NCBI GenBank assembly: GCA_947259365.1
Contig: CAMYMC010000046.1
Location: 1-64,000 of the forward strand
Source of the DNA: an uncultured Acidimicrobiaceae bacterium
Lineage (GTDB): Bacteria > Actinomycetota > Acidimicrobiia > Spongiisociales > UBA5794
Length of the DNA: 64,000 nt
Direction of reading: 5' to 3'
Shown: positions 9,227-64,000 of the stretch, in pieces
Layout: each line of letters starts with the position of its first letter
Position numbering within the stretch: position 1 is the stretch's first letter
The notes under the pieces: model-generated
Seen by the model: the letters and a program-made list of their open reading frames with translations, nothing else
Databases searched by the model: none
What the model was told of the DNA's origin: nothing
Translations under genes and position numbers: made by a program

Positions 9227-9253
9227 GCAGACCCCCCGACACCCAACGGTATG

Positions 9254-9266: not shown

Positions 9267-9307
9267 ATGGTACCGTCCCGCCGCCGGCAACCGAGGAGAG
9301 CACCACG

Positions 9308-10303: not shown

Positions 10304-10326
10304 CACGCAGCGCAAAGGAGGGCACG

Positions 10327-41849: not shown

Positions 41850-41906
41850 CAAGAAGGCAGAGAACTGTATGAGCTGGCAGATGATGCGCAGGAAGGATGC
41901 CTTGGC

Positions 41907-44652: not shown

Positions 44653-44970
44653 ATGGCCACCGCAACACTGAGCGGATACGAGATCCACGTCGACGAAGAG
44701 GGGTTCATGACGGACCCCGCCGAGTGGAGCGAGGAGCTCGCCGGCTTCCTGGCCCATCAGATCGGCATCGACGAGCTGACCGAGGACCACTGGAAGGTCA
44801 TCCGGTTCCTCAGGGAGGACCATGCGACGGAGGGCACGACCGCCACCCTGCGTCGGGTCTCCACCCTGGGCGGGATCCCGGTCAAGCAGCTCTACGCGCT
44901 GTTCCCCAAGAAGCCCGCCAAGAAGATGGCGTACATCGCCGGCCTTCCCAAGCCGAAGGGCTGCGTCTGA
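44653..44970 (+). CDS. TusE/DsrC-family sulfur acceptor protein
   Basis: A 105-residue protein with the DsrC/TusE pattern: VDEEGFMTDPAEWSEELAGFLA near the N terminus, LTEDHWKVIRFLREDHA, then the flexible C-terminal arm ending GLPKPKGCV. The penultimate cysteine (Cys104) is the conserved persulfide carrier. The second cysteine of dissimilatory DsrC, eleven residues earlier, is replaced by alanine, so this is TusE-like and cannot form the DsrC trisulfide ring. It sits between the DUF1641 gene and a DsrE3-like gene and would accept sulfur from the DsrE or SQR partner. An AAAGGAGG site lies before the ATG. Confidence 0.9.
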   Translation: MATATLSGYEIHVDEEGFMTDPAEWSEELAGFLAHQIGIDELTEDHWKVIRFLREDHATEGTTATLRRVSTLGGIPVKQLYALFPKKPAKKMAYIAGLPKPKGCV

Positions 44971-45003: not shown

Positions 45004-45516
45004 ATGACGACGGACACGATGGAGATGCCGGTTCCCGCGTTTGCCGCGGACGAGGACACCGATCGCAAGATCTGCCTCATCTGCTCGAAGGGCACGCTCG
45101 ACATGGCATACCCCGGGCTGGTGCTCGCCAACGGCGCGCTCCAGGAGGGCATCGAGACCCACATCTTCTTCACGTTCTGGGGCCTGGACATGATCACGAA
45201 GAAGCGGATGAGTCACCTCAAGGCGACCCCGGTCGGCAACACGGCGATGCACATGCCCCAGGCGGCGGCGCCGCTGCCGGGCATGACTGCGATGGCGACC
45301 CGGATGCTGAAGAAGGAGATCGACGAGCTCGGCATCCCGGAAGTGCCCGAGTTCCTGCAGCAGATCGCCGACGCCGGCGGCCACCTGTGGGCCTGCAAGA
45401 TGTCTGCGGACATGATGGACGTGAGCCAGGACGACCTCTTCGAGGAGGTCGAGGACATCATCGACGTCAGTGAGTTCATGGACCTGAGCGCGGACGCGCA
45501 GGTCATCTTCATCTGA
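45004..45516 (+). CDS. DsrE3-like (DrsE_2 family) sulfur-carrier protein
   Basis: A 170-residue protein of the DsrE/DsrF/DrsH-like group, paralogous to the protein at 2011-2568. It has RKICLICSKGTLDMAYPGLV near the N terminus (Cys24 and Cys27), TFWGLDMITKKRM, PGMTAMATRMLKKEI and LWACKMSADMMDVSQ with the family cysteine near residue 131. The CxxC at 24-27 is absent from the paralogue and could give it thiol-disulfide activity. It is the last gene of the regulator-SQR-DUF1641-TusE-DsrE operon and is followed by a perfect terminator hairpin. A GCAAAGGAGTGAC site precedes the ATG. Confidence 0.87.
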   Translation: MTTDTMEMPVPAFAADEDTDRKICLICSKGTLDMAYPGLVLANGALQEGIETHIFFTFWGLDMITKKRMSHLKATPVGNTAMHMPQAAAPLPGMTAMATRMLKKEIDELGIPEVPEFLQQIADAGGHLWACKMSADMMDVSQDDLFEEVEDIIDVSEFMDLSADAQVIFI

Positions 45517-48247: not shown

Positions 48248-49615
48248 ATGCCTGATCACGTTCGTATCACGCTCGATGAGTCGGAGCTGCCCACCCAGTG
48301 GTACAACCTCATCCCCGACCTGCCGGTTCCGCCACCACCGGTGCTGCACCCGGGAACGCACGAGCCGGTCGGCCCTGACGACCTCGCGCCACTGTTCCCG
48401 ATGGCGCTCATCGGCCAGGAGGTGACCACCGACAGCTACGTGGACATCCCGGGCGCCGTGCTCGACATCTACAGGATGTGGCGGTCGACCCCGCTGCACC
48501 GGGCCCGCCGTCTCGAGCAGCACCTCGATACGCCGGCGCGGATCTACTACAAGTACGAAGGCGTCAGCCCGGCCGGCTCGCACAAGCCCAACACATCCGT
48601 CCCCCAGGCGTACTACAACGCCCAGGAGGGCGTGAAGAAGCTCACGACCGAGACAGGCGCCGGGCAGTGGGGCTCGGCGCTGGCACTGGCGACCGCGCTC
48701 TTCGGCCTCGAATGCGAGGTGTGGCAGGTGGCGGCCTCGTTCATACAGAAGCCGTACCGGAAGACGATGATGGAGGTGTGGGGCGCCAAGGTGCACTCAA
48801 GCCCATCCGAGGTCACCAACGCCGGGCGACAGATCCGTGCCGAGAGCCCGGACAGCCCGGGGAGCCTCGGCATCGCCATCTCCGAGGCGGTGGAGGTCGC
48901 CGCCGGCGACCCCGACACCAAGTACTCGCTCGGGAGCGTCCTCAACCACGTCCTGTTGCATCAGACGGTCATCGGCCAGGAGGCGCTGGCGCAGCTCGCC
49001 AAGATCGGGGAGACACCCGACCTCCTCGTCGGCTGCACCGGCGGCGGCTCGAACTTCTCGGGGCTGTCGTTCCCGTTCCTGCGGGAGAAGCTGGCCGGCA
49101 ACATGAACCCGACGATCCGCTGCGTCGAGCCGGCGGCATGCCCGTCGCTGACGAGGGGCGAGTACCGGTACGACTTCGGCGACACCATCGGCATGACCCC
49201 GCTGGTGAAGATGCACACCCTGGGCCACGGGTTCGTCCCGGACCCGATCCACGCCGGCGGGCTCCGCTATCACGGGATGGCGCCGCTCGTGTCGCATCTG
49301 TACGAGATCGGGCTCGTCGAGGCCGAGGCGATCCACCAGAACGAGTGCTTCCAGGCTGCCGTCACCTTCGCCCGCACGGAGGGAATCCTCCCCGCCCCGG
49401 AGCCGACCCATGCCATCGCGGCGGCGATCCGGGAGGCGAACCGGTGCAGGGAGACGGGTGAGGAGAAGGTCGTCCTCATCGCCGTGTGCGGCCACGGCCA
49501 TTTCGACCTCACGGCGTACGAGACCTACCTCTCCGGCCAGCTCGTCGACTACGAGTACCCGGAGGAGAAGGTCGCCGAGGCCATGAAGGCGGTCCCGGTG
49601 GTCGCCGGAGCCTGA
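48248..49615 (+). CDS. trpB2: Tryptophan synthase beta chain-like protein, TrpB2 type
   Basis: A 455-residue PLP enzyme. The lysine that binds PLP is in [11 protein letters not shown] (about residue 118), the phosphate loop is [10 protein letters not shown], and the long N-terminal extension ([21 protein letters not shown]) is diagnostic of the TrpB2 class. TrpB2 proteins make tryptophan from indole and serine without TrpA or act on related beta-replacements. No trpA or other trp gene is adjacent. Its position beside the indolepyruvate/indoleacetate-like operon is suggestive of indole salvage, though the two are convergent rather than cotranscribed. Start at an ATG after GAAGGAGG. Confidence 0.93.
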
Positions 49616-49706: not shown

Positions 49707-50900
49707 CTACGCGACCTCGAGCACGACGGCCATGGCGCTGTCGCCACCGGCGCATCCCGAGAAGAGCCCATAGCCGCCGCCGGAGGCGATGAGCTCCTCG
49801 ATGAGCTCGATGATCGCCCTCAACCCCATCGGCGCCTGGGGGTGGCCCCAGATGAGCGGCGATCCGTTGTTGTTCACGCTCTCCGGCGCCAGGCCCATCT
49901 CCCGGCAGAAGAACACGTCAGCGACCGCGAACGGGTTGTGGGTCTTGACTGCAGCACAGTCGGCGATCCCGATGCCGGCCCGTTCGAGGGCGTGACGCGC
50001 CGCCGGCACGATGGCCTTCGGCATCATCCCCTTCTCGACGCGGGCTTCGCCGTAGCTCACGATCCGGATCTCGACGCCCGGGTTGTGCGCGAGCTCCCGA
50101 GCCCGCTCCCGAGTCGCCACGATGATGCCGGCGTTCCCGTCGGCGGGATGCGTCTGGGACCCGTACGTGACGGATCCACCGTCGATGACCGGACGAAGGG
50201 CAGCGAGGCCCTCCGCCGTCGTCTCGTAGACGCCCTCATCGGCCTCGAGGGTCCCCAGCGACTTCTTCCCCCTCTTCAGCGCGACGGGGACCATGTACGC
50301 CTTCTGGAACGCGCGGTCCCCGGCGACCGCTTTCTCGTACTGCTCGTAGCGGATCAGCGTGAGCTCGTCCTGCTCCTCGCGGGTGATGCCGGACTCGCGG
50401 GCGAGGTTCTCCGCGGTGGCGATCATCGCCAGACCGGCGTGGGGATCCTTGTTCATGTTCCCGAGGACCGGATCCTCCGAGGTCCCCATGCCGCCGGGCC
50501 CGTGCGGGTCCGGGTAGTAGACGTGGGGGCCGTTGGACGTGCGGTCACATGCCGCCGTGAGCACGCAAGACCGCTGACCGACCTCGACCTCGACCGCGGC
50601 TGCGGCGAGTGCCCGCGCCGAGGTGGCGCACGCCTGTGACACCGTCGGGCCGGTGATGTCGGAGGCACCGAGCATTCCGGCGAGCCAGGGTGCGCCATAG
50701 AACGAGTAGGCCTGCTGGACGGTGATACCGAGCACGATCCCGTCGAACGAGGCCGGGTCGATGTCCCGGTCCTCGAGGAACGAGCGCCCCACGTCGCCGG
50801 CGAGCCGGATCGAGTGGTAGCCGCTGAGGCTTCCCTGCCAGCGGCTGAACGGCGTCGACCAGTAGCCGCCGTAGGGGATGAAGGATTTCTCGAGAGCCAT
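49707..50900 (-). CDS. Thiolase-family acyl-CoA acetyltransferase
   Basis: A 397-residue thiolase-fold protein. The nucleophilic cysteine is in VSQACATSARALAAA (about residue 90), the histidine in KTHNPFAVAD, and the second cysteine in FSGCAGGDSAMAV; all three catalytic positions are therefore filled. A middle Asn/His region reads NMNKDPHAGLAMIATAE. It would cleave a 3-oxoacyl-CoA to acetyl-CoA and a shortened acyl-CoA. It is the last gene of the eleven-gene catabolic operon; the ATG at 50900 is four bases after the preceding gene. In the indoleacetate-type scheme it would release acetyl-CoA from a 3-oxo-aryl-propanoyl-CoA. Confidence 0.9.
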   Translation of the reverse strand: MALEKSFIPYGGYWSTPFSRWQGSLSGYHSIRLAGDVGRSFLEDRDIDPASFDGIVLGITVQQAYSFYGAPWLAGMLGASDITGPTVSQACATSARALAAAAVEVEVGQRSCVLTAACDRTSNGPHVYYPDPHGPGGMGTSEDPVLGNMNKDPHAGLAMIATAENLARESGITREEQDELTLIRYEQYEKAVAGDRAFQKAYMVPVALKRGKKSLGTLEADEGVYETTAEGLAALRPVIDGGSVTYGSQTHPADGNAGIIVATRERARELAHNPGVEIRIVSYGEARVEKGMMPKAIVPAARHALERAGIGIADCAAVKTHNPFAVADVFFCREMGLAPESVNNNGSPLIWGHPQAPMGLRAIIELIEELIASGGGYGLFSGCAGGDSAMAVVLEVA

Positions 50901-50904
50901 GGTC

Positions 50905-52905
50905 CTAGCCTTTCCCACTGCCGGTTACGAATGCTGTGATCCTCTCCCGGGCCGCGTCCGTGCACGCCGTGGCGCCGAACGCGGCGTAGCCAACCTCCAG
51001 CGCCGCCGTCAGCGTCGCGGCCGCAGCCGCCTTGAGGATCGCACCCTCGATGAGGGCGATGACCTCTTCGTCGAGCGACCCCTCGTCGAGGATGGGCTGT
51101 GGAACGTCCTCGAAGCCGACCACGTCGACGGGCCCGTCCGGGATCGCCTCCACCTTCCCGACGAGCTCATGGACGCGGGCGACAGCGGCGCGGCAGAGCG
51201 ACGCGTGCTCGGGGGCCAGAGCGTCGACGATGCCGAGTCGCCCGGCCTCGCCGGCCGCGAGCTCTTCGCCCTCGCGGATCATCCGGTGGAACACCGGGGC
51301 GGCGGCCGGCCAGCGGCGGTACGGCACGACGAGGGCGCCGATCCCGGGAGCGATCCCGAGCGTCGTCTCGGGGAAGCGGAGCAGGGCATCCTCGACGGCG
51401 ACGATGCCGTGGCATCGCAGCGCGAGCTCGAGGCCTCCACCGAGGGCCATCCCGTTGAGCGCGGCGACGACCGGCTTGTCCATTCCGTCGAGGTGGACGA
51501 GGAGCCGGGAGCAGTCGCGGGCATACTGGGCGGCGGCCGCGGCGTCACCGAGCATCGAAGGGAAGCGACCGATGTCGGCGCCGGCGCAAAAGGCGCGGGG
51601 GCCGTAGCCGGTGATGACGAAGCCGGCGACGCCCGGGTCGTCCTCGTGGGAGCGGATCGCGGCGAGGAGCTCGTCGGTGACGTCGTCGTCGAGCGCGTTG
51701 AGCGCCTCGGGACGTCTGATCGTCAGCACCCGCACGTCGTCGATCTCGTCGACGAGCACGTAACGCGAGAACCGCCCGTACTCGGCCAGAGCCTGCATCG
51801 GCATCGGCATCCCGGACCGCTCGTCCGAGAACCGGCCCAGGATCCTGCTCGCCTCGCCCTCGCCGACGTCCGTGAGCAGGCGGAACGGGCCCTTTCTGAA
51901 CCCGAGGGCGAGCCGGCATCCGAGCTCGAGGTCGGCATCCTCGCCGATCCCCCGGTCGACGACGTCCATCGCCTGGGAGAAGAGCACGCCGAGCAACCGG
52001 TCACGCACCGCCGCCCGTGTCTCGGCGTCGACATCGACGTGCTCGCCCGGCCCGAGGGTGTTCCAGGTCTCGACGGAGCGGAACACCGGCGCCGGGCGGT
52101 AGTGCTCGCCCTCTTCCTCCATCTGCAGCGTGTTCGTCTCGACGATGATCGGGTTGCCCTGGGCCATGTTGAGGACGAAGAACGGGCCGGCGTGGACGAA
52201 CTCGCCGGCCACCTCGTCGATCTCCGCCGCCGAGGCGCGGGCGAGGAGCAGACCGGCTTCGTTGCACCAGTTGTCGAAGATCCTGTCGAGCATGAAGCAC
52301 ACCGCGTCGGACGTCTCGAGGGGAACCTTGCCGGTGGCGCACAGCATCCAGCGGAGGTCGTCGAGGGTCCTCCGGTCGACGCCGTCCCACGCCACGACCT
52401 CCACGACCGGGTTGCGGAACGCCGGGGCGAAGAAGTGGGTGACGGTCGCTCGCTCTGGGCGTTCGAGACCGGCGAAGATCCGTTCCGCCGGGAGCGAGCT
52501 CGTGTTCGACGTCACGAGGCAATCGGCGCCGACGATGCCCTCGATGCGGGCGAAGATGTCGCGTTTCAGCTCGAGGTTCTCGGTGGCGGCCTCGATCACC
52601 CAGTCGCAGCCGGCGAGGACGCCGTAGTCCAGGGTCGTCTCCAGGCCCGCCTTCACGGCGTCGGCGAGGTCTGCGGTGAGCTTGTTCCGGGCGAGGCCCT
52701 TGGCGACGTAGGCCTCGATCCTCGCCCGGGCGGAGTCGAGCGCCTCCTCGACGACGTCGACGAGGACCACCTCGAGGCCGGGGATCGCGCTCGCCAGGTA
52801 GTAGGCGATGTCGGGGCCGATGGTTCCGGCGCCGACGACGCCGACACGGGACGGCAGCGGCCGGCTGGGCGCCTCGAGCATCGGGTTGGCGCGGGTCGCG
52901 CTCAC
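50905..52905 (-). CDS. 3-hydroxyacyl-CoA dehydrogenase/enoyl-CoA hydratase fusion
   Basis: A 666-residue bifunctional beta-oxidation protein with the dehydrogenase first. The NAD site is RVGVVGAGTIGPDIAYYLAS near residue 20, and the dehydrogenase C-terminal domain follows to about 385. The crotonase domain lies at about 400-580 with RAFCAGADIGRF, GMALGGGLELALRC (first Glu) and RFPETTLGIAPGIG (second Glu); both catalytic acids are present. Classical FadB has the opposite domain order. A fused hydratase-dehydrogenase is also one of the indoleacetate-induced proteins described in Azoarcus. The GTG at 52905 has a GGAGGAGGA site and starts 8 bases after the molybdenum subunit stop. Confidence 0.92.
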   Translation of the reverse strand: MSATRANPMLEAPSRPLPSRVGVVGAGTIGPDIAYYLASAIPGLEVVLVDVVEEALDSARARIEAYVAKGLARNKLTADLADAVKAGLETTLDYGVLAGCDWVIEAATENLELKRDIFARIEGIVGADCLVTSNTSSLPAERIFAGLERPERATVTHFFAPAFRNPVVEVVAWDGVDRRTLDDLRWMLCATGKVPLETSDAVCFMLDRIFDNWCNEAGLLLARASAAEIDEVAGEFVHAGPFFVLNMAQGNPIIVETNTLQMEEEGEHYRPAPVFRSVETWNTLGPGEHVDVDAETRAAVRDRLLGVLFSQAMDVVDRGIGEDADLELGCRLALGFRKGPFRLLTDVGEGEASRILGRFSDERSGMPMPMQALAEYGRFSRYVLVDEIDDVRVLTIRRPEALNALDDDVTDELLAAIRSHEDDPGVAGFVITGYGPRAFCAGADIGRFPSMLGDAAAAAQYARDCSRLLVHLDGMDKPVVAALNGMALGGGLELALRCHGIVAVEDALLRFPETTLGIAPGIGALVVPYRRWPAAAPVFHRMIREGEELAAGEAGRLGIVDALAPEHASLCRAAVARVHELVGKVEAIPDGPVDVVGFEDVPQPILDEGSLDEEVIALIEGAILKAAAAATLTAALEVGYAAFGATACTDAARERITAFVTGSGKG

Positions 52906-52912
52906 GACGACG

Positions 52913-55336
52913 TCATCCTCCTCCGGCGCCGGCCACGGCGGTCTCTTTCTCCCGCAGGGCGCGGATGATCTTCTCCGGAGTGATGGGCAGGTCGAGGATG
53001 CGAACACCGATCGCGTCGAAGATGGCGTTGCCGACTGCCGGAGCGGTGGCCACGATCCCGGGCTCGCCCGCTCCCTTCGCCCCGAAGGGGCCGTACGGGT
53101 CGTCGGTCTCGACGAACTCGAGCTCGATGGGGAAGTCGAGGTCCGCCGCCGACGGCATCTTGTAGTCGGTGAACCCGGCGTTGAGGATGCGACCCTCTTC
53201 GGTCTTGATCTCCTCGTAGAGGGCGTAGCCCACCCCCTGGGCGATGCCGCCGTACATCTGGCCCCGCAGCGCCTGGGGGCTGAGCACGCGCCCCACGTCG
53301 GTCACCGCGACGAGCCGGAGGATGCGGACCTCCCCGGTGTCGACGTCGACCTCGACCTCGACGCCCTGGACCCCGAACGTGTAACTGGCGGACATGTTCC
53401 CGATGCCCCTGTCCCAGTCGGGAAGCTCGGTGGGCGGCTCGTAGAAGGCCTCCTCGGTGAAGATCGTGCCGACACCGCCCTCCTTCGTGAAGTGGACGGC
53501 CCGGAGGAAGCGGCCGAGGTCGATCTGGAGCCACGGCTCATCGGGCGCATCGACGACGAAGAGCCGTCCGCCCTGAAGGTCGAACCGGTCACGGGTCACC
53601 GACGTGTAATCGAATCCGGCCGGGCTCACGTCCTCGCCCCGGTCGCGGAGCCGGGCCAGGTTCCGCTCGACCTCGGCCGGGTACACCTTCTCGGCGTGCT
53701 CGAAGATCCGCGCCCTCAGCTTCTCGCAGGCCATCACGGCGGCGTTGCCGGCCATGAACGCGCCGCGGCTCGCGTGGGTTCCGACGTCCCACGGGCTCGT
53801 CGCCGTGTCCGTCTCGTTGATGTGGACGTTCTCGGGCTCGACGCCGAGGGCCTCGGCGACCATCAACGTCAGGGCCGAATGGAGGCCCTGGCCCATCTCG
53901 ACACCGCCGTAGGCGACGTTGACGTGGCCGAAGTCGTCGAGCTTGAGGATGATCCCGCTGCCGTCCGAGGCGTAGATCTTGCCGCCCCCGCCGACGTTGA
54001 TGAGCGAGGCCATGCCGACGCCGCGTGCCGTGCGCCGCTCCGGTCCGCGGGCCTCCTTCCAGTCGATGCGAGCCGCGGTCCGGTCCAGGCACTCGGTCAG
54101 CCCACAGGTCGCGAGCTTCAGTCCCATCGGGGTCACGTCGCCGGGCTGGTTGCTGTTGAGGAGCCGCATCTCGTAGGGATCGATCCCCGCCGCGGCGGCG
54201 AGGTCGTCGAGGCTGCTCTCGATCGGCCACGTGATCTCGGGGTTCCCGTAGCCCCGCATCGCCTGGCAGTACGTGTTGTTCGTGTAGACGATCCTCGAAT
54301 CGAACCTCACCGCCGGCACCCGGTACAGCGACGTCGCCGCCACCAGCATGACGTTCGGGTACGTCGCCCCCCACGACGTGTACGCACCGTTGTCCTGGAC
54401 GACGTCGACCTCGCGGAACGTGAAGCGCCCTTCCGCATCGCAGCCCTGGCGGATGAACATCGACGCCGACTGCCGGGGAGAGAGATAGGCGAACTCCTGC
54501 TCGCGGTCGTAGAGAATGCGCACCGGCTTGCCCGTCGTCCAGGCGAGGAGGATGGAGATGTACTCGTAGGCGTGGGTGTCGAGTCCGGTCCCAAACGCGC
54601 CGCCGACCGCCGGCACGACGACGCGCACGTTGCGGCCCTCCAGGCCGAGCGCAGCGAGAATGCTGTTGAAGTCCCGCTGGGCGAGGAACGGGATCTGCGT
54701 CTTCGTCGTGATCGTCAGGTTGCCGTTGCGGTCGAACTCGGCGATGCAGCCCGACGTGCCCAGCGCCGCCTGCTGGATACGGGGAACCGTGTAGGTGCCT
54801 TCGACGACGTGGGCAGTGCGCTCCTTCGCCGCGTCGAGGTCGCCGGATGCGTGGCGGCACGGCAGCGGAACGACGTTCGACGTGCGGGGGCGTCCCGCGG
54901 CGTCGGTCTCGTGGATGAGGACGGCGCCCTCGGCAAGGGCCTCCTCGGGAGTGAACACACTCGGCAGCGGCTCGTACTCGACCTCGATGAGATCGACGGC
55001 CTCGCGGGCGATGTCGGGGTCGATGGCGGCGACGGCGGCGACCTCGTCGCGGAACTGGCGGACCTTGCCCTTCTTGAGCACGAGGTTGTCGCGCATGAAG
55101 CCGTACCGGACCTCGGGGACGTCGTCGGCGGTGATGACAGACCGCACTCCGGAGAGGGCCCGCGCCCTCGAGGTGTCGATGTGGACGATGCGGGCGTGGG
55201 CGTGCTCGCTGAACTTGATGGCGCCGTGGAGCATGCCGGCGACGGTGATGTCGTGGATGTAGCGCGCCGTGCCGGCGAGCTTGTCGGCCCCTTCGGGTCG
55301 CTGCGCTTCGGTGCCGACGTGGCGGTACTTGCTCAC
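52913..55336 (-). CDS. Xanthine dehydrogenase-family molybdopterin-binding large subunit
   Basis: An 807-residue molybdenum hydroxylase subunit. Visible are the N-terminal DKLAGTARYIHDI segment, VVPAVGGAFGTGLDTHAYE, QAMRGYGNPEITWP, and the active-site glutamate at 758 in AKGAGEPGIVATAPAVGN. It would hydroxylate a ring carbon next to nitrogen, or a CoA thioester ring, using water. Its GTG overlaps the small-subunit stop. Together with the two genes upstream it makes the L-S-M trimer. Because the FAD subunit lacks the extra [4Fe-4S] loop of 4-hydroxybenzoyl-CoA reductase, a hydroxylase such as indoleacetate dehydrogenase is the better reading; this remains inference. Confidence 0.9.
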   Translation of the reverse strand: MSKYRHVGTEAQRPEGADKLAGTARYIHDITVAGMLHGAIKFSEHAHARIVHIDTSRARALSGVRSVITADDVPEVRYGFMRDNLVLKKGKVRQFRDEVAAVAAIDPDIAREAVDLIEVEYEPLPSVFTPEEALAEGAVLIHETDAAGRPRTSNVVPLPCRHASGDLDAAKERTAHVVEGTYTVPRIQQAALGTSGCIAEFDRNGNLTITTKTQIPFLAQRDFNSILAALGLEGRNVRVVVPAVGGAFGTGLDTHAYEYISILLAWTTGKPVRILYDREQEFAYLSPRQSASMFIRQGCDAEGRFTFREVDVVQDNGAYTSWGATYPNVMLVAATSLYRVPAVRFDSRIVYTNNTYCQAMRGYGNPEITWPIESSLDDLAAAAGIDPYEMRLLNSNQPGDVTPMGLKLATCGLTECLDRTAARIDWKEARGPERRTARGVGMASLINVGGGGKIYASDGSGIILKLDDFGHVNVAYGGVEMGQGLHSALTLMVAEALGVEPENVHINETDTATSPWDVGTHASRGAFMAGNAAVMACEKLRARIFEHAEKVYPAEVERNLARLRDRGEDVSPAGFDYTSVTRDRFDLQGGRLFVVDAPDEPWLQIDLGRFLRAVHFTKEGGVGTIFTEEAFYEPPTELPDWDRGIGNMSASYTFGVQGVEVEVDVDTGEVRILRLVAVTDVGRVLSPQALRGQMYGGIAQGVGYALYEEIKTEEGRILNAGFTDYKMPSAADLDFPIELEFVETDDPYGPFGAKGAGEPGIVATAPAVGNAIFDAIGVRILDLPITPEKIIRALREKETAVAGAGGG

Positions 55337-55815
55337 GCGGGTCTCTCCATCATCAACTCTGCGGCCGCCCGGACCGACTCGACGATCTGAACGTAGCCGG
55401 TGCACCGGCACAAGTTGCCCGTCAGGGCGTATCTGATCTCCTCCTCGCTCGGATCGGGGTTCTCGGCGAGCAGAGCGACGCTGGCCATGATCATGCCCGG
55501 CGTACAGAAGCCGCACTGGGTGCCGCCGAACTCGAGGTATGCCGTCTGCACCGGAGACAGCTCACCGCCCGGCTCGAAGAGGCCCTCGACGGTCGTCACG
55601 CTGGTCCCGTCGGCCTCGCACACCGGATAGAGGCACGACACGACGGCGGCGTCGTCGACGAGGACGGTGCAGGCACCACACTCACCCTCTCCGCAACCCT
55701 CCTTGGTGCCCATCTCCCCGAGCACGTCTCGCAGGACGTCGAGCAGCGTCCGGTGCACGTCGACCTCGACGGCCACATCGTGCCCGTTGAGCCGGAACGC
55801 GACCTCCTCTCTCAT
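55333..55815 (-). CDS. Xanthine dehydrogenase-family [2Fe-2S] subunit
   Basis: A 160-residue electron-transfer subunit with all eight cysteine ligands: Cys41, 46, 49 and 61 ([17 protein letters not shown]) for the plant-type cluster and Cys101, 104, 136, 138 ([19 protein letters not shown]) for the second cluster. It moves electrons from the molybdenum site to the FAD subunit. The ATG at 55815 overlaps the FAD-subunit stop and the stop overlaps the large-subunit start. Length and motifs are canonical. Confidence 0.95.
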
Positions 55816-56672
55816 AGCACCCCCTCGCCGGGAGCGGCCCGCAGCCGCTCGAGGGCACGGCGGAGGAGCACACCGGTGAGGTGCCGCCGGTAGTCCGCAG
55901 TGGACCGCACATCGGTGATCGGCGAGATCTCGTCGGCCGCAGCCGTCGAAACCCGGGCGATGGTCGCATCGTCGAGGGGGGAGCCGACGAGCAGCCCCTC
56001 GGTGTCGCGCAGCCGCTTCGGAACCGGTGCGACCGCTCCGGCGGCGAGACGGGCCCGCACACACGACCCTTCTTCCATCTCGACGAGGGCGGCGACCGAG
56101 ACGGTGGCGACGTCCATCTTGACCCTGGCTTTGCGCAGGTACACCGAGCGCACGTCGCCGGCGCGAGGAGGCAGGAGAATCGCGGTCATGACCTCGCCGG
56201 GCGCCAGAGCCGTCTCCCCCGGCCCGACGAAGAACTCCTCGAGTGCCATCTCGCGGGCGCCGGCGCGGTCACGCAACTCCACGACCGCGTCGTAGACGAG
56301 CAGCGGCGGCGCCGCGTCGGCGCCGGGAGAGGCGTTGCACAGGTTCCCGCCCAGGGTCGCCATGTTGCGGATCTGGCGGCTCCCGAAGGGGCGCATCGAG
56401 TCGATGAGGGCCGGGTAACCGGCGGCAACCGCCGGCTCGGCCTGCAGCTCCGTCAAGGTGACGGACGATCCGATCCGGAGTCGGGCGCCGTTGTCGATGC
56501 CTCCCAACTCCGCGACGTGCCGCAGCGAGATGAGCGCAGCGGGGGCGGCGGCGCGCTTGTGGATCTGGACCATGAGATCGGTCCCGCCGGCGACGAAGCG
56601 CGCCCCGGGCGTGGCGGCGGCGATGTCGAGAGCCTCGGCGAGGGAGCGGGGACGGTGGTAGTCGTAGCTCAC
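55812..56672 (-). CDS. Xanthine dehydrogenase-family FAD-binding subunit
   Basis: A 286-residue CoxM-type subunit with the FAD motifs ARFVAGGTDLMVQIH near residue 24 and NMATLGGNLCNASPGADAAPP near residue 103. The 40-residue cysteine-rich insertion that binds a [4Fe-4S] cluster in 4-hydroxybenzoyl-CoA reductase is missing, which argues for an oxidative hydroxylase. The GTG at 56672 overlaps the stop of the CoA-transferase, and the stop overlaps the [2Fe-2S] subunit. It would pass electrons to NAD+ or another acceptor. Confidence 0.93.
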   Translation of the reverse strand: MSYDYHRPRSLAEALDIAAATPGARFVAGGTDLMVQIHKRAAAPAALISLRHVAELGGIDNGARLRIGSSVTLTELQAEPAVAAGYPALIDSMRPFGSRQIRNMATLGGNLCNASPGADAAPPLLVYDAVVELRDRAGAREMALEEFFVGPGETALAPGEVMTAILLPPRAGDVRSVYLRKARVKMDVATVSVAALVEMEEGSCVRARLAAGAVAPVPKRLRDTEGLLVGSPLDDATIARVSTAAADEISPITDVRSTADYRRHLTGVLLRRALERLRAAPGEGVL

Positions 56673-57880
56673 GCGATCACCTCCGCGTCGCGCAGCTCCG
56701 CGAGCTCCCCGGCCCCGTAGCCGGCCTCGGCGAGGACGGACTCGGTGTGCTCACCGTAGGCCGGGGCGAAGGGGAGATCGCCGCCGCGCCTGTCGAGATG
56801 CTCGACGGGGACCGCCGGCGGCGGCAGCCGGACCACGGTGCCGTCGGGGGCGACGGTGCGCAGCGCCGTCTCGGCCACGAACGGGAGCTCGGGGACTCCC
56901 TCGACCGCGCTGATCGGCGAGTGGGGCACCGAGGCCGCGACGAGCGTTGCGGCGACGTCGCCGGTCGGGTACCGGCTCGTGATGGCGGCGATCCTGGTGT
57001 GGAGCTCCTCGCTCGCCGCCCGGCGGCCCTCGTTGGTGGCGTAGTGCGCCTCGTCGAGCTCGGCGAACATGGGCTGGTCGATGAGGCGGCCCCATTGCGC
57101 ATCGCTGCCGACGGCGGCGTAGATGTAGCCGTCCGCGGTCGGGTAGGCGTTCACCGGGAAGAACTGGCGATGCTCGTTGCCGTTGCGGCGCAGCTCCTCC
57201 GCAGGGCTGCCCATGTCGAGCAGCGGGGTGAACGTGTGCAGCCACGAGGCAGCTCCATGGGCGAGGGAGACGTCGATCATCTTCCCGTGCCCGGAGCGTT
57301 CCCGCTCCAGCATCGCCAGCGCCACCTGGGCGAAGACTTCGTCCCCTGCCTTGAGATCGGCGATCGGCGGCCCGCACTGCATCGGCGGGCCCCCGCGCTC
57401 GCCGGTCAGGTCCATGTAACCGACGAGGGCCTGGGTGACCGGGTCGTAGCCCGGAACGTCCGGGTAACGGGTCCCCATCGCCGAAACGGAGCACCAGATG
57501 AGGTCCGCTCGCACCGAGCGCAGCGTCGGGTAGTCGATGCCGAGCGGGACGTGGCGCGACGGCATGGTGTTGGTGCAGAAGACGTCCGCGTCGAGCTCGC
57601 GGATGAGCCGGTGGAGTGCCTCCCTCCCTCGCGGGTCCTTGAGGTTGAGAGCGATCGCCTCCTTCCCGACGTTCGGGGCGACGTAGTAGCTGTGACGGTC
57701 CTCACCGGCGACGGGCCGGCCGATGTAGCGGTTCGGGTCGCCCTTCGAGGCCCGGCCCGGCACGGGGGTCGACTCGATCCGGATGACCCGCCAGCCGAGG
57801 TGCACGAACCGCAGCGTCCCGTACGGCAGGCTCAGCGCCTGCTCGAGGCTGAGGACGATCGGGCGATCCGGCGAGCTCAT
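56669..57880 (-). CDS. CaiB/BaiF (class III) CoA-transferase
   Basis: A 403-residue single-domain class III CoA-transferase. The N terminus includes LSLPYGTLRFVHLGWRVIRIES; the catalytic aspartate is in GPPIADLKAGDEVFAQVAL (about residue 173). Class III enzymes move CoA between organic acids through an aspartyl-CoA ester. In the indoleacetate pathway a CoA-transferase of this class activates (2-aminophenyl)succinate, so the same position would be fitting here. The ATG at 57880 is 4 bases after the mutase stop. It overlaps the FAD-subunit gene by four bases. Donor and acceptor acids cannot be read from the sequence. Confidence 0.9.
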   Translation of the reverse strand: MSSPDRPIVLSLEQALSLPYGTLRFVHLGWRVIRIESTPVPGRASKGDPNRYIGRPVAGEDRHSYYVAPNVGKEAIALNLKDPRGREALHRLIRELDADVFCTNTMPSRHVPLGIDYPTLRSVRADLIWCSVSAMGTRYPDVPGYDPVTQALVGYMDLTGERGGPPMQCGPPIADLKAGDEVFAQVALAMLERERSGHGKMIDVSLAHGAASWLHTFTPLLDMGSPAEELRRNGNEHRQFFPVNAYPTADGYIYAAVGSDAQWGRLIDQPMFAELDEAHYATNEGRRAASEELHTRIAAITSRYPTGDVAATLVAASVPHSPISAVEGVPELPFVAETALRTVAPDGTVVRLPPPAVPVEHLDRRGGDLPFAPAYGEHTESVLAEAGYGAGELAELRDAEVIA

Positions 57881-57884
57881 CGGC

Positions 57885-59489
57885 TCAGAAGCGGACGGGT
57901 TCGCGGTAGCTCCCGTAGACCTTGCGGAGGGCACCGCACACCTCGCCGACCGTTGCGTACGCTTCGACGGCGTCGAGGGTCTCGGGCATGACGTTGCGTC
58001 CCTCCCGTGCCGCCGCCTCGACCGCATCGAGCGCCGCCGTGACCGATGCCTCGTCCCGCCCGGTTCGGACCTCGCGAAGCCGCTCGACCTGGCGCGCCGC
58101 CTCCTCCTCGCGGTACCCGTGGAACTCGATGGCGCGCTCGTCCTCGTCGTCGCGGAAGATGTTCACCCCCACCTTCTTCACCTGCCCCGTCTCGACGAGG
58201 AGCTCGCGCTCGTAGGCCTGCCGGCTGACCTCGGCCTGGACCCGGCCCTCGGCGACGCCCTTGACGATGCCGCCCTCGCCGTCGAGCTTGTCCATGACGC
58301 GAACGATCTCGTCCTCCATCTCGTTCGTCATCGTCTCGACGAAGTACGACCCGGCGAGAGGGTCGACCGTGTCGGCGAGCCCCACCTCGTGGACGAGGAG
58401 TTGCATCGTCCGCAGCGAGATCTTCGCCGCGTGTTCGGTCGGGATCGTGTAGGCCTCGTCGTAGCTGCACAGCGCCATCGTCTGGGCACCGCTCAGGGCG
58501 CTGGCGAGCGCGTAATACGCGCCCCGCATGATGTTGTTCTCGGGCTGTTCGATCGTGAGCCCGGCGCCACCGCCGCCGGCGATCATCCGCAGCTGCATCG
58601 CCTTCGCATCCGTCGCCCCGTACTGCTCCTTGAGGACCTTCGCCCACAACCGGCGACCGGCCCGGAACTTGCACACCTGCTCCCACAGGTTCCCGTACAC
58701 GTCGAAGTTGAACGTGATGCCCCTGGCCACGCTGTCGACGTCGAGGCCCCGATCGAGGGCGTGGTCGAGGTACGCCCTGGCGATGGCGAGACCGTAGGCC
58801 ATCTCCTGGACCGGGCTCGCCCCGGACTCCCGGATGTGGTAGCCGCAGACGCTGACCGGGCTGTACGTCGGGACGTTGCGGGCGCAGAACTCCATCGTGT
58901 CGCCGACGAGCTTGATCGACGGCTCGACCGGGAAGATCCAGGTCCCCCGGCCGATGAACTCTTTGAGGATGTCGTTTTGCGCCGTGCCGCGCAGCGTGGC
59001 GAGGTCGAAGCCCCGTTTGCGGGCCATGGCGAAGTACATCGCCATGATCGGCACCGCCGCCCCGTTGATCGTGAGCGACACGGTGATCTCGTTGAGGGGG
59101 ATGTCGGCAAATGCCTCTTCCATGTCGGCGAGGGTGTCGACCGCCATCCCGACCCTGCCCACCTCGCCGTCTGCCATCGGGTCGTCGGAATCGAGCCCGC
59201 ACTGCGTCGGCAGGTCGAACGCGACGTTGAGCCCGGTGTTGCCCTTCTCGATGAGGTAGAGGAACCGCTCGTGGGTCTCGGCCGCGGTGCCGAACCCGGA
59301 GTATTGGCGCATGGTGAAGGGACGGGACCGGTACATGTGGGGGTGGATCCCGCGGGTGAACGGGTACTCGCCCGGCGCGCCGATGCCGCCGGTGCCCCCG
59401 GAACGCTCCAGATCCTCGGCGGTGTAGACGGGCTGGATCTCGAGGCCCGATTCCCACGTGACCCGCTCCGGCTGGTGCTTCGTGCTCAT
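57885..59489 (-). CDS. B12-dependent acyl-CoA mutase, large (catalytic) subunit with divergent active-site loop
   Basis: A 534-residue protein of the methylmalonyl-CoA mutase large-subunit family, split from its B12 domain. Tyr63 (MRQYSGFG), Gln171 (TAQNDILKEF), Arg181 (IGRGTWIFP) and His218 (CGYHIRESG) correspond to MCM residues that hold the substrate carboxylate and act at the radical centre. However, the LRxHxQTxG loop of known mutases is LRMIAGGGGAG here (residues 300-310), so the His and Gln are missing and replaced by glycines, enlarging the acyl pocket. That fits a dicarboxylic acyl-CoA with a bulky side chain. It overlaps the B12 subunit by 4 bases. Probable substrate is (2-aminophenyl)succinyl-CoA-like, by inference. 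Confidence 0.88.
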   Translation of the reverse strand: MSTKHQPERVTWESGLEIQPVYTAEDLERSGGTGGIGAPGEYPFTRGIHPHMYRSRPFTMRQYSGFGTAAETHERFLYLIEKGNTGLNVAFDLPTQCGLDSDDPMADGEVGRVGMAVDTLADMEEAFADIPLNEITVSLTINGAAVPIMAMYFAMARKRGFDLATLRGTAQNDILKEFIGRGTWIFPVEPSIKLVGDTMEFCARNVPTYSPVSVCGYHIRESGASPVQEMAYGLAIARAYLDHALDRGLDVDSVARGITFNFDVYGNLWEQVCKFRAGRRLWAKVLKEQYGATDAKAMQLRMIAGGGGAGLTIEQPENNIMRGAYYALASALSGAQTMALCSYDEAYTIPTEHAAKISLRTMQLLVHEVGLADTVDPLAGSYFVETMTNEMEDEIVRVMDKLDGEGGIVKGVAEGRVQAEVSRQAYERELLVETGQVKKVGVNIFRDDEDERAIEFHGYREEEAARQVERLREVRTGRDEASVTAALDAVEAAAREGRNVMPETLDAVEAYATVGEVCGALRKVYGSYREPVRF

Positions 59490-59890
59490 GTCGTCACCGT
59501 GCTTTCGAGAAACTCCACGATGGCGTCGAACGACGTGCCCGTCGGGAACACGCCGGCGACGCCGATCTCTCGCATCGCCTCCTCGTCCGAGGGTGGGATG
59601 TTGCCGCCGACGATCACGGTAGCGTCCCCGGCGCCGTTGGCTCGCAGCTCCTCGACGACGCGCCTCGTCAGCGGGATGTGGGCGCCGGAGAGCACCGAGA
59701 GACCCACGACGTCGACGTCTTCTTCCACCGCCGCGGCCGCGATCTCGCCCGGCGAGCGGCGGAGCCCCGTGTAGACGACCTCCATGCCCGCGTCCATGAG
59801 CGCCCTCGCCACGATCTTCGCCCCGACGTCGTGCCCGTCGAGACCCGGCTTGGCGACGAGCACCTTGATGGGACGGGTGCGCCCCGTCAT
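59486..59890 (-). CDS. B12-binding subunit of acyl-CoA mutase
   Basis: A 134-residue cobalamin-binding domain with the base-off/His-on signature DGHDVGAK (DxHxxG), LSVLSGAH and IVGGNIPPSDEEA. It supplies adenosylcobalamin to the large subunit encoded directly downstream. Split mutases with this layout include 2-hydroxyisobutyryl-CoA mutase and the indoleacetate-pathway mutase. Its start overlaps the acyl-CoA dehydrogenase stop and its own stop overlaps the large-subunit start, ensuring coupled synthesis. No MeaB/ArgK-type chaperone gene is in view. Confidence 0.93.
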   Translation of the reverse strand: MTGRTRPIKVLVAKPGLDGHDVGAKIVARALMDAGMEVVYTGLRRSPGEIAAAAVEEDVDVVGLSVLSGAHIPLTRRVVEELRANGAGDATVIVGGNIPPSDEEAMREIGVAGVFPTGTSFDAIVEFLESTVTT

Positions 59891-61005
59891 CGGGTCAGAC
59901 CTCTGGCGATGTTGATCCGGAGCAGCTCGGAGGTCCCTCCTCCGATGATCGTGAAGCGAACGTCACGGAGGTACCGCTCCACCGGGTATTCGGCGGCATA
60001 CCCGTAGCTCGCCATGATCCGCGCTGCCCGGTCGCAGACCTCCATCGCCACCTCGGATGCGAACAGCTTTGCCATCGCCGCCTCGTCGGTGCTCTCCTTC
60101 CCGCGCTCGGAGCGCCACGCAGCCCAGTACGTCAGCTGGCGGGCCGCCTCGAGTTTCGTCCGCATCTCGGCGAGATGGGCCTGGATCGCCTGGAACTTGG
60201 CGATCGGCTTGCCGAACTGCACCCGCTCCTTGGCGTAGGCGAGGGAGTCCTCGAAGGCCGCCCGACCCACCCCGAGGGCGAGGGCTGCGGTCATGAGCCT
60301 GATCTCGGCGAGGATCTCGAACAGGCTGGCCACCCCTTCGCCTTGCCCGCCGAGCATGCAGGTCGCCGGAGTCCCGTCGAAGAACACCTCCGACGTGAGC
60401 GAGGCCTTGATGCCCATCTTCTCGATCGACCGGCCGACGCTGAGGCCATCGGCCCCCTTCTCGACGAGGAAGATGCTGAGCTCCTTCTCGCCGGTACGGG
60501 CGAACACCGTGAACATGTCGGCGACCGGCGCCGAGGTGATCCACGTCTTCTGGCCGCTGAGGCGCCAGGTGTCGCCGTCGCGCTCGGCGGACGTCGTCAT
60601 CGAGAAGAGGTCGCTGCCGGCATCGGGCTCGGTCATGCAGATCGTCCCGATGACGTCTCCTCGAAGCGCCGGGGCGAGAAGCCGGTCCCGCAGCTCGCCT
60701 TCCGCGAAGCGGTGCACGAAGAACGTGCCCATCAGCGACTGCATGGTGCACGCAGCCGCAACCGCCAGCGAGCCACGGGCCAGCTCCTCGACGGCGACGA
60801 GGTACGACGTGACGTCGGCACCGCCGCCGAGAGGCTCGGGGTACCTCATACCGAAGAACCCGAGCCGACCGACCCCGGCGAACAGCTCGGCGGGGAACCG
60901 GGGATCCTTGTCGAGATCGTCCGCGACGGGACGGATCTCGTTGTCGGTGAACTCGCGGAAGAGCTTGCGGACGGCGTCCTGGTCTGCGGTCAGCGCGAAG
61001 TCCAT
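59887..61005 (-). CDS. Acyl-CoA dehydrogenase lacking the usual C-terminal catalytic glutamate
   Basis: A 372-residue FAD acyl-CoA dehydrogenase. The flavin/substrate segments ICMTEPDAGSDLFSMTT and QKTWITSAPVADMFTVFARTG are intact, as is the C-terminal RIMASYGYAAEYPVERYLRD. At the place where medium-chain enzymes have the catalytic Glu (IYEGT), the sequence is IIGGGTSE, with Gly356. Some family members use a base elsewhere; if not, a decarboxylating or non-oxidative role is possible. In the indoleacetate-type route an acyl-CoA dehydrogenase acts on the product of the mutase, whose gene is adjacent. The ATG at 61005 is 3 bases beyond the IorB stop. Confidence 0.9.
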   Translation of the reverse strand: MDFALTADQDAVRKLFREFTDNEIRPVADDLDKDPRFPAELFAGVGRLGFFGMRYPEPLGGGADVTSYLVAVEELARGSLAVAAACTMQSLMGTFFVHRFAEGELRDRLLAPALRGDVIGTICMTEPDAGSDLFSMTTSAERDGDTWRLSGQKTWITSAPVADMFTVFARTGEKELSIFLVEKGADGLSVGRSIEKMGIKASLTSEVFFDGTPATCMLGGQGEGVASLFEILAEIRLMTAALALGVGRAAFEDSLAYAKERVQFGKPIAKFQAIQAHLAEMRTKLEAARQLTYWAAWRSERGKESTDEAAMAKLFASEVAMEVCDRAARIMASYGYAAEYPVERYLRDVRFTIIGGGTSELLRINIARGLTR

Positions 61006-61008: not shown

Positions 61009-61653
61009 TCAGTCCCTCCCCGCCGGCGTCGTCGCCGTCCCGGCGCCGACGACGCCTGCGTGATCCCTGCCCAGGCCTGCCCCTCGCGCGAATGCGGCCT
61101 TGCGCACCGCGACGTCGATCGACGAGTCGGCGCCGGCGACGGCGCCGAGCAGAGCGTCGGTCGGGATGGGGCTGGCTTCGAGACCGGCGAGCGCGCCGAG
61201 CATCACCGTGTTCGTGAGCCTGCGATCACCCGCAGCGGCAGCGGCAGCGGTGGCGTCGAGCACATAGACCCGGCGCGCCACGGCGGCGATCGCCTCGACG
61301 ATGCCGTCGAGGTCGGGGTAATCGCCCCCTGCCAGGGTGAGGCTCGTCGGGACGATGGGCGTCCGGTTCACGAGCACCGTCGCCCGCGGCGACATCTTCG
61401 GGACCACCCGCTGCGCCTCGAGCGGCTCGAGGCCGACGACGACGTCGGCGCTCGCCGGCGGGATGAACGCCGTCCTCATGTCGCCGATCCGCACCGTGGC
61501 TTCGACGCTCCCTCCCCGCTGCGAGAGCCCGTAGATCTGACCGACCCGGACCCCGAGCCCGGCCGCGGCCGCGGCCGCGCCGAGGGCGTGGGCGAGGCGG
61601 AGCACGCCCTGGCCGCCGACACCGGCGACGACGACGTCGCAGCTCGCACTCAT
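61009..61653 (-). CDS. iorB: Indolepyruvate:ferredoxin oxidoreductase beta subunit-like (IorB)
   Basis: A 214-residue member of the pyruvate:ferredoxin oxidoreductase gamma (POR catalytic) family with VVVAGVGGQGVLRLAHALG at the N terminus and IYGLSQRGGSVEATVRIG, both diagnostic of IorB. It pairs with IorA in oxidative decarboxylation of arylpyruvates to aryl-acetyl-CoA. The final 30 residues are Ala/Gly-rich and less conserved. Its ATG overlaps the IorA stop (ATGA). Indolepyruvate, phenylpyruvate and hydroxyphenylpyruvate are the usual substrates; the operon context favours indolepyruvate. Confidence 0.92.
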   Translation of the reverse strand: MSASCDVVVAGVGGQGVLRLAHALGAAAAAAGLGVRVGQIYGLSQRGGSVEATVRIGDMRTAFIPPASADVVVGLEPLEAQRVVPKMSPRATVLVNRTPIVPTSLTLAGGDYPDLDGIVEAIAAVARRVYVLDATAAAAAAGDRRLTNTVMLGALAGLEASPIPTDALLGAVAGADSSIDVAVRKAAFARGAGLGRDHAGVVGAGTATTPAGRD

Positions 61654-64000
61654 CGCACCACCGCGGGCTCGATGACGGGGACGATGGCGCCGTTGGGGCA
61701 GAACTGGGCGCACACACCGCAGGCGACACAGAGCCCGGCGTCGATCTCGACCGCGCCGCGGTCGACGTAGAAGGCGGGGCAACCGAAGAGGTCGAGACAG
61801 GCGCTGCAGTTCCCGCACAGCCCGCAGATCATGCAGCGGGCGGCCTCGGCACGGGCCTCGTCCTCGGTGAGCGTCGCGACGACCTCCTCGAAGCCGCCCA
61901 TCCGCGTCCCCGGATCGAGCTCCACCGGCCGGCGGCGCCCCTCGGTCCGGTCCCGGCGCACCCCCGGTCGTCCCGGCGGCGGCCGGGTCGGGACCACCGG
62001 AGGCGGCATCCTGACGTCGGCGGCGGCGGGCCCCCGCAGGCTCCGGTCGAGCCCCCATGCGGCGCGGAGCCCGCCCGCGATGGCCCCCGTGACACTGCCA
62101 CCGGCGCCGAGCACGTCCCCCGCGGCGTAGACGCCGGCGTGGGAGGTGCGGCCGGTCCCGGGGTCGACGACGAGGCCGTCGGTCCAATCCAGCTCGACGG
62201 TGCCGTCCGCAGCGACCCTCTGCGGGGCCTGACCCACGGCGAGCACGACGAGTTCGGCCGCGACGAGCCGATCCGTTCCGGCGCGGGCCTCGTAGCTCGC
62301 CGGGTCGGTGCGGGCCGGGTCGTGATGGTGGACCTCGACCAGCTCGGCACCGCCGGCAACGAGGCGGGTGGCCCGGGTCCGGCACAGGAGATCGACGCCC
62401 TCGTCCTCCGCCGCCTCGATCTCGCCGGAGATGGCCGGCATCTCGTCCCGTGCCTCGAGGCACGAGATGATGACGTGTTCCGCGCCGCGACGCAGCGCCG
62501 TCCTCGCCGCGTCGATGGCCGCGTTCCCCCCACCGACGACGAGGACCGTCCCCGCAGCCGTGTCCGGTTCCTGCAGGTACGCCAGCGCCTGGACGACGGC
62601 GGGGCCTTCCCCCTCGATGGGAAGGGTGAGCGGGTCCGCGGCGCCGAGCGCGATCACGACCCCGTCGTGGCCATCGACGAGCTCGCCGAGCCGCAGATCG
62701 GCACCGAGGTGGCGGCCGCCCTCGAAAGAGACCCCGAGCCCGAGGATTCTCTCGGTGTCCCGTCGCAGCACCTCTCGGGGAAGGCGGTACTCGGGGACCC
62801 CGGTGAGCAGCAAACCGCCCGGCTCGGCATTGGCGTCGTAGAGGTGGACGTCGTAGCCCCGCATGGCGAGGTCGTGGGCGGCGGCCAGCCCGGCGGGGCC
62901 GGCACCGACGACGGCTGCCGACCTGCCGTGCGCCGGCTCCGGCTCGGGGGTGTGGGGGTACTCGTCCTGGGATGCCGCCCAGTCCATGACGAACCGCTTG
63001 AGGTCGTTGATCGCAACCGGTTCGTCGAGGCCGCCGCGCACACAGACGTCCTCGCATGGCTTGTGGCAGACCCGGCACACCGACTCGGCGAGGGGCAGCC
63101 CGTCGAGGATGAGCTCGAGGGCGTCTGCGTACCGTCCGGCAGCGATATGAGCGGCATAGCCCTGGATGCAGAGGAAGAGCGGGCACCGGGTCGCACACGG
63201 TGCAACGTCGGGGCGGGACGCTCGGTCGCCGTCCAGCTCGAGTGAGCGCGCCCTCACCATGGCCCGTTCGAAATCTTCGACGACGCCCTGGCCGCATCGC
63301 TGCCCGCAGCTCGACCGGCCGCAGTAGCGGCACCGCTCGTGGTCGATCGTATAGGTGGTGACCCGCGGCGCCGCTGCGGGGGCACGCCGGACGGTACGGG
63401 CCTCGAAGACGGGGCAGATCCGCTGCGAGATCACCACGCTGAGCCCGTCGCGCTCCTTCGCTCGCTCGAAGGCGGCAACGGTGGCGGCGAGGTCGTTGGG
63501 GTCGACGGTTTCGACGTGGGGGGCGCCGAGCGCCCGCACCACGGCCTCGATGTCGACCGTGCGCTGCACCTGCCCGTCCTCGACCGGGGCACCGGGCCGC
63601 TCCTGGAACCCGGTCATCGCCGTGACCTCGTTGTCCATGATCACGGCGACCATGTTCACGTTCTCCTTGACGGCGTTGAGCAGCGCCGGCATCCCGGAAT
63701 GGAAGAACGTCGAGTCGCCGAGGAACCCGAGGGTCTGCCGCCCGCTGGTGCGCGCCACGCCGGCGGCGAGGGTGAACCCGGCGCCCATCGCCAGCAACGC
63801 ATCACCGGCCCGCAGCGGCGGCGCAACGCCGAGCGAATAGCAGCCGATGTCGTTGAAGTACAGGGCCTCGTCGCCGAAGACACTCCGGGCCGCAAAGAAC
63901 GCCGGGCGGTGGGGACAGGCGGCGCACAGCGTCGGCGGCCGGTTCGGCAGCGACGGCGCCTCGGCCACGACTTCGGCAGGCGCCCCGATGCCGACGAGGT
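61650..64000 (-). CDS. iorA: IorA-like 2-oxoacid oxidoreductase fused to GltD-like FAD/NAD(P) domain and ferredoxin domains; 5' end off the right edge
   Basis: About 782 residues are visible. The first part is the IorA ThDP domain: RPPTLCAACPHRPAFF, then GDSTFFHSGMPALLNAV with VIMDNEVTAMTGFQ for ThDP-Mg. A cysteine-rich linker (CRYCGRSSCGQRCGQ) follows. The second part resembles GltD/NfnB/PadH: CATRCPLFLCIQGY and CRVCHKPCEDVC for Fe-S clusters, VVGAGPAGLAAAHDLA for FAD, VVGGGNAAIDAARTAL for NAD(P). The C terminus has CMICGLCGNCSACLDLFGC and CVACGVCAQFCP, further clusters. This would link arylpyruvate oxidation to NAD(P)+ within one polypeptide, comparable to the FAD subunit of phenylglyoxylate:NAD oxidoreductase. 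The N-terminal IorA domain lies beyond the window. Confidence 0.9.
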   Translation of the reverse strand, partial: LVGIGAPAEVVAEAPSLPNRPPTLCAACPHRPAFFAARSVFGDEALYFNDIGCYSLGVAPPLRAGDALLAMGAGFTLAAGVARTSGRQTLGFLGDSTFFHSGMPALLNAVKENVNMVAVIMDNEVTAMTGFQERPGAPVEDGQVQRTVDIEAVVRALGAPHVETVDPNDLAATVAAFERAKERDGLSVVISQRICPVFEARTVRRAPAAAPRVTTYTIDHERCRYCGRSSCGQRCGQGVVEDFERAMVRARSLELDGDRASRPDVAPCATRCPLFLCIQGYAAHIAAGRYADALELILDGLPLAESVCRVCHKPCEDVCVRGGLDEPVAINDLKRFVMDWAASQDEYPHTPEPEPAHGRSAAVVGAGPAGLAAAHDLAMRGYDVHLYDANAEPGGLLLTGVPEYRLPREVLRRDTERILGLGVSFEGGRHLGADLRLGELVDGHDGVVIALGAADPLTLPIEGEGPAVVQALAYLQEPDTAAGTVLVVGGGNAAIDAARTALRRGAEHVIISCLEARDEMPAISGEIEAAEDEGVDLLCRTRATRLVAGGAELVEVHHHDPARTDPASYEARAGTDRLVAAELVVLAVGQAPQRVAADGTVELDWTDGLVVDPGTGRTSHAGVYAAGDVLGAGGSVTGAIAGGLRAAWGLDRSLRGPAAADVRMPPPVVPTRPPPGRPGVRRDRTEGRRRPVELDPGTRMGGFEEVVATLTEDEARAEAARCMICGLCGNCSACLDLFGCPAFYVDRGAVEIDAGLCVACGVCAQFCPNGAIVPVIEPAVVR

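Follow-up and report, generated by a model that had tools for sequence, protein, structure and literature searches.

Background

2-Oxoacid:ferredoxin oxidoreductases depend on low-potential ferredoxin. In the PadEFGHI enzyme a subunit of its own carries the flavin part that reduces NAD+, and in the pyruvate:NADP+ oxidoreductase (PNO) of Euglena a 2-oxoacid oxidoreductase and a pyridine-nucleotide reductase are present in one chain. Phenylglyoxylate:NAD+ oxidoreductase is a named enzyme (PMC5109826). The decarboxylating benzylmalonyl-CoA dehydrogenase IaaF, which takes part in the degradation of indoleacetate, is characterized by a GGG motif that replaces YEG (PMC8360864).

The locus described here encodes an IorA protein that contains a GltD-like flavoprotein and is followed by IorB and genes of an indoleacetate (iaa) type pathway. 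Judged from sequence data, the fusion is real, conserved and functionally coherent. The gene is read, with a probability of about 0.7, as the large subunit of a CoA-acylating arylpyruvate:NAD+ oxidoreductase that would not need ferredoxin and would most likely act on indolepyruvate. A full-text literature search, with most subscription journals outside its reach, found no published description of an IorA-GltD fusion.

Methods

The window, that is, the whole stretch of DNA analysed, comprised 64,000 nucleotides (positions 1-64000 of contig C46, which runs on to 96025) from a genome of 3.34 Mb in 50 contigs that is 94% complete. Domains and protein families were assigned with Pfam and NCBIfam models. 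Related loci, 78 in number, came from one scan that covered 84,980 species genomes, and fused proteins were called by parsing the ORFs of those loci. Two profiles were built, one from the ferredoxin domains of unfused IorA proteins and the other from the ferredoxins at the C-terminus of GltD-like proteins that are likewise unfused. An AlphaFold2 model, without cofactors, was generated from 42 sequences for homologue L006 (Acidimicrobiales, 66% identical); its mean pLDDT was 86.4 and its pTM 0.78.

Table 1. Features of the fusion gene and its operon (window coordinates, except where contig C46 is named).
Feature	Position	Strand	Residues	Remarks
IorA-GltD fusion gene, whole	C46:61650-65039	-	1-1129	1129 aa, ATG start at 65039, no internal stop (ORF read on full contig)
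IorA-GltD fusion gene, part in window	61650..64000	-	347/348-1129	782 aa + stop; ORF open at window edge
ThDP-binding domain, TPP_enzyme_C	63432..63851	-	397-536	Pfam
Seam with fusion-specific C570, C573, C582, C624	63168..63332	-		Cys in 33/33 fused proteins; extra [4Fe-4S] proposed
Fer4_20, GltD/NfnB-type N-terminal Fe-S domain	62967..63227	-	605-691	Pfam
FAD + NAD(P) domains of GltD-like block, Pyr_redox_2	62073..62918	-	708-989	Pfam
Nucleotide-specificity motif C-L-E	62454..62462	-	860-862	Alignment with relatives; Y-R-R in NADP(H)-binding relatives
C-terminal ferredoxin domain, IorA type	61683..61835	-	1069-1119	Eight conserved Cys for two [4Fe-4S] (predicted)
IorB	61009..61653	-		214 aa; next gene, ATG overlaps fusion-gene stop codon
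IaaF-like acyl-CoA dehydrogenase	59887..61005	-		GGG motif (IIGGGTSEL)
IaaH-like B12-binding mutase subunit	59486..59890	-		
IaaG-like acyl-CoA mutase large subunit	57885..59489	-		
Family III CoA-transferase, IaaL-like	56669..57880	-		
Molybdenum hydroxylase FAD subunit, XdhB-like	55812..56672	-		
Molybdenum hydroxylase 2Fe-2S subunit, XdhC-like	55333..55812	-		
Molybdenum hydroxylase large subunit	52913..55336	-		Xanthine-dehydrogenase type
3-Hydroxyacyl-CoA dehydrogenase / enoyl-CoA hydratase fusion	50905..53007	-		Beta-oxidation; start approximate
Thiolase	49707..50918	-		

Domain organization of the fusion protein

The domain order and cofactor motifs were read directly from the ORF. On the full contig, the residues encoded outside the window supply the rest of the IorA body, with POR_N at residues 27-191 (Pfam). 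The original prediction that a complete GltD-like flavoprotein with its own Fe-S domain lies within an IorA chain was borne out by the Fer4_20 and Pyr_redox_2 domains and by a match to the GltD-like model NF009410 (NCBIfam; residues 611-1120, 368 bits). Of the GltD/NfnB type, Fer4_20, the FAD-binding GxGxxG (GAGPAGL at 712) and the second Rossmann motif GGGNxAxD (GGGNAAID at 836) are present, and of IorA, the ThDP domain, the cysteines of the catalytic [4Fe-4S] cluster and the C-terminal dicluster (Fer4 at residues 1097-1119; Pfam). The IOR_alpha model TIGR03336 (NCBIfam) gave 617.8 bits, with its best stretch at residues 16-574; that this falls short of the cut-off of 650.9 is probably due to the insertion, which divides the match. 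IorB matched Pfam POR with 103 bits and IOR_beta with 157 bits, under the cut-off of 205.8 for the latter.

The last domain of every fused protein scored 33-65 bits with the unfused-IorA profile versus 10-24 bits with the unfused-GltD-like profile. The C-terminal dicluster is therefore IorA's own, and the GltD block lies inside IorA, between the ThDP part and the C-terminal ferredoxin, where it had been predicted to be inserted. With the leader of the ferredoxin region included, the window's clade scored about equally on both profiles, and the leader itself (FxEVVxxLTExxAxxEAxRCxxC) is GltD-like in this clade, which corrects the original prediction in this detail. Despite this leader, derivation of the C-terminal ferredoxin from the GltD-like partner was ruled out by the last-domain scores.

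Homologues and distribution

Parsing of the 78 loci yielded 32 further full-length fused proteins of about 1111-1249 aa, from independent assemblies and with the same in-frame domain order. Fused loci were distributed among Acidimicrobiia, Gemmatimonadota, Planctomycetota, Acidobacteriota, Myxococcota, Pseudomonadota, Bacteroidota and KSB1; those listed are metagenome-assembled genomes throughout, and IorB adjoins nearly all of the 33 fused genes. The fused form was absent from the named plasmid records searched. The window's genome also carries an unfused IorA, at C19:85885. GltD-like modules additionally occur in other large proteins (L133 and L143, 1139 and 930 aa) of the genome of L071 (CP070689).

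An assembly or sequencing artefact that joined iorA to a gltD gene is suggested by the rarity of the full fusion in the window's class, where it was found in 1 of 296 sampled genomes (the window's own) and most genomes carry the parts as separate genes, with an unfused IorA and separate GltD-like genes. The probability of such an artefact is nevertheless close to nil. The same in-frame order recurs in the 32 independent loci from many phyla, and a relative of the same family (G338) encodes the C-terminal half at 60% identity (query residues 781-1123). The artefact was thus ruled out, and the fusion is neither a chance event nor a joined frameshift; the homologues also dispose of the objection that the two parts might always be separate genes in relatives.

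Proposed electron path

The cysteines of the catalytic cluster are invariant or nearly so in the fused proteins, as they are in unfused IorA. Of the four seam cysteines, C570, C573 and C582 lie just ahead of the GltD block and C624 lies within it; all four positions are Cys in both sequence clades, and the position of C624 is occupied by D, N, E, R, K or L in 33/33 unfused GltD modules. Together they are probably the ligands of an additional [4Fe-4S] cluster, which would connect the two parts at the seam. A ligand set made up of the seam stretch alone, C-x2-C-x4-C-x3-C, was ruled out, since C578 is not conserved (12/26).

In the proposed mechanism, IorB and the IorA body would decarboxylate a 2-oxo acid on ThDP to give arylacetyl-CoA and CO2, and the electrons would leave through the catalytic [4Fe-4S] cluster (C372, C375, C400, C542). 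Two electrons would then pass, one at a time, from the catalytic cluster to the seam cluster, the GltD-type cluster(s) and the FAD, from which a hydride would be given to NAD+ in place of soluble ferredoxin. The C-terminal dicluster may be part of this path or a second exit, and could still be able to reduce external ferredoxin. The presence of the inserted module speaks for NAD+ over ferredoxin as the acceptor.

Nucleotide acceptor and bifurcation

An acidic residue at the nucleotide-specificity position favours NAD. In alignments, Y-R-R follows the second Rossmann strand in the solved NADP-binding relatives of the GltD-like block, as it does in most unfused GltD modules, and the fusion protein has C-L-E in its place. 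The motif is CLE, CIE, CVE or FPE in 26 of the 33 fused proteins, and the remaining 7 have YRR. CLE also occurs in the separate GltD encoded next to an unfused IorA in the L054 iaa cluster. NAD+ is thus the likelier acceptor, given an acidic residue and a motif without arginine, and the predicted single-chain, NAD(P)+-linked arylpyruvate oxidoreductase, a likely function in view of the domain set and motifs, can be narrowed accordingly to an NAD+-linked one. Use of NADP+, or of both nucleotides, by the same one-chain enzyme would agree with the fact that GltD-like modules are mostly NADPH enzymes, and the Y-R-R kept in the minority of fused proteins suggests that some relatives do use NADP+. 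For the protein in the window this is distinctly improbable, because in NfnB two conserved Arg bind the extra phosphate of NADP+ (PMC6405883) and both are missing here, and because the acidic residue is common to most fused relatives.

With NAD+ as acceptor, 2-oxoacid oxidation runs downhill by itself, so that no coupling is required, confurcation is unneeded and reversal, which would be uphill with NADH, is unlikely to be physiological. The original prediction had allowed for confurcation and for reverse operation, and neither was upheld. A module coupling arylpyruvate oxidation to both ferredoxin and NAD(P)+, or an enzyme running backwards as a reductive carboxylase, is very improbable, even though the block is homologous to NfnB, two exits (the C-terminal ferredoxin and NAD) can be imagined, and the NfnB Arg at FAD N5 (R of Y/F-R-L-P; PMC6405883) is kept, in a stretch that GltD relatives generally keep too. 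No NfnA-like partner with a [2Fe-2S] cluster and second FAD, and no ETF-like partner, was found among the operon genes, which leaves the cluster without a second flavin partner. Among solved structures, the inserted block is moreover closest in both sequence and fold to the GltD domains of NfnABC and StnABC (9n5u, 9bov, 8oh5), whose chains ranked first in Foldseek with the L006 model, ahead of NfnB-type and GltD chains, and the GltD-like domain of StnC has been reported to have lost bifurcation (PMC10482914).

Operon and substrate

Downstream of the fusion gene the order is IorB, acyl-CoA dehydrogenase, mutase pair, CoA-transferase, molybdenum hydroxylase, 3HCDH/ECH and thiolase. Neighbouring genes overlap at their start and stop codons or come close to doing so, and co-transcription is predicted. 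Upstream are a RidA-like gene, a PaaK-like ligase and transporter genes including a periplasmic binding protein. In the iaa pathway, ring hydroxylation and opening are the roles of a molybdenum hydroxylase and a hydantoinase. The combination of a GGG-motif IaaF, the mutase, the CoA-transferase and the molybdenum hydroxylase points to an iaa-type pathway, and the operon looks like one for the breakdown of indole compounds such as tryptophan and the plant hormone auxin. The GGG motif was present in every locus with an IaaF-like gene near fused or unfused relatives. The enzyme would feed indoleacetyl-CoA into the pathway of its own operon, made up of the molybdenum hydroxylase, a candidate hydantoinase encoded elsewhere, the CoA-transferase, the B12 mutase, the decarboxylating dehydrogenase and beta-oxidation.

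Indolepyruvate is proposed as the substrate from this operon context. Phenylpyruvate or 4-hydroxyphenylpyruvate might be used in its stead, or the operon might handle another aromatic acid through the same mutase chemistry, in either case with the redox mechanism unchanged. IorAB enzymes do take several arylpyruvates (PMC5109826, PMC9765128), the PaaK-like ligase lies upstream, and hydantoinase genes are absent beside IorB in the window's cluster and in L005. Such a substrate is still considered unlikely, because the GGG-motif IaaF marks indoleacetate clusters (PMC8360864), and because most related loci have, between IorB and IaaF, a hydantoinase A gene and another whose size fits hydantoinase B. 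G338, which has the same operon as the window, carries hydantoinase genes at that place. The window's genome also has a candidate hydantoinase pair on contig C6, whose A subunit is 77% identical to one near the fusion in L041; a search of this genome for an orthologue of the main type (about 56% or more to L012) gave none, its best match being 41%.

The window's own cluster has neither an aminotransferase nor a hydantoinase gene. In the iaa cluster of a distant fused clade, a class I/II aminotransferase (L036:15806-16831, + strand) fits an arylpyruvate substrate derived from an amino acid. In L003, a PaaK-like ligase (7469-8887, + strand) and apparent branched-chain-type ABC transporter genes, extending to about 14456, are divergent from the fusion gene and possibly serve indoleacetate uptake and activation. 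Near the end of the indole operon in the window, a PALP-family protein (48248-49615, + strand) is TrpB2-like (tryptophan synthase beta-like) by eye. Farther along, adjoining DsrC-like and DsrE-like genes (44653-44970 and 45004-45516, + strand), downstream of a Pyr_redox_2 protein (41897-43936), form a possible sulfur-relay cluster.

Evolution and significance

In the tree of IorA bodies the fused proteins are spread over more than one clade, with two changes (AU p = 0.00075): a group of 7 stands apart, and the main 26 are sister to 12 unfused IorA proteins, several of them in iaa clusters. In the tree of GltD modules, those from all 33 fused proteins fall on one side of a branch versus the 33 unfused modules sampled, with a support of 86 that is moderate and not conclusive. 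The two trees thus disagree, and either two fusions or one fusion with losses would account for them. A split counterpart of the fusion was observed in the Planctomycetota iaa cluster of L054, where gltD (7638-9455) and iorA (9505-11382) are separate neighbours and the gltD product has a Cys-rich ferredoxin-like stretch at its start.

The window's genome encodes a heme-copper oxidase and so has a respiratory sink for NADH. A link between the fusion and oxygen was rejected as a discriminating feature, since almost every genome with an iaa IorA, whether fused or unfused, has a heme-copper oxidase. It is tentatively suggested, as a possibility below even odds, that these proteins form a class of one-chain arylpyruvate:NAD+ oxidoreductases whose seam [4Fe-4S] cluster is specific to the fusion, and that this class had two separate origins from ferredoxin-dependent IorA within the same pathway and lets aerobes run a pathway known from anaerobes. 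The architecture would illustrate how 2-oxoacid oxidoreductase chemistry could plug directly into NAD+ in oxygen-respiring organisms, and it yields direct, assayable predictions for the acceptor and the seam cluster. It further suggests that an operon for indole and auxin degradation, headed by an entry enzyme from the tryptophan side, is present in widespread uncultured bacteria.

Comparison with known systems

The fusion protein shares with IorAB (TIGR03336 / TIGR03334) a full IorA body, the C-terminal dicluster ferredoxin, the conserved catalytic-cluster cysteines and an adjacent IorB, and differs in about 500 inserted residues that contribute Fe-S, FAD and NAD(P) sites and in its acceptor, probably NAD+. 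PadEFGHI of Azoarcus evansii likewise couples a 2-oxoacid oxidoreductase to NAD+, but it belongs to another subfamily, has another substrate and uses a separate flavin subunit where the fusion has a built-in module. Euglena PNO, unlike the fusion, is of the PFOR type with a C-terminal cytochrome-P450-reductase-like FMN/FAD part, uses NADP+ and is eukaryotic. The GltD-like modules of NfnABC and StnABC are similar plug-in Fe-S/FAD/NAD(P) units, but they are joined to other redox domains and a bifurcating core, carry Y-R-R and take no part in ThDP chemistry. The iaa operon of Aromatoleum aromaticum has the same IaaF with GGG, mutase pair and CoA-transferase (PMC8360864), whereas the operon in the window is headed by a putative arylpyruvate oxidoreductase with a built-in NAD module.
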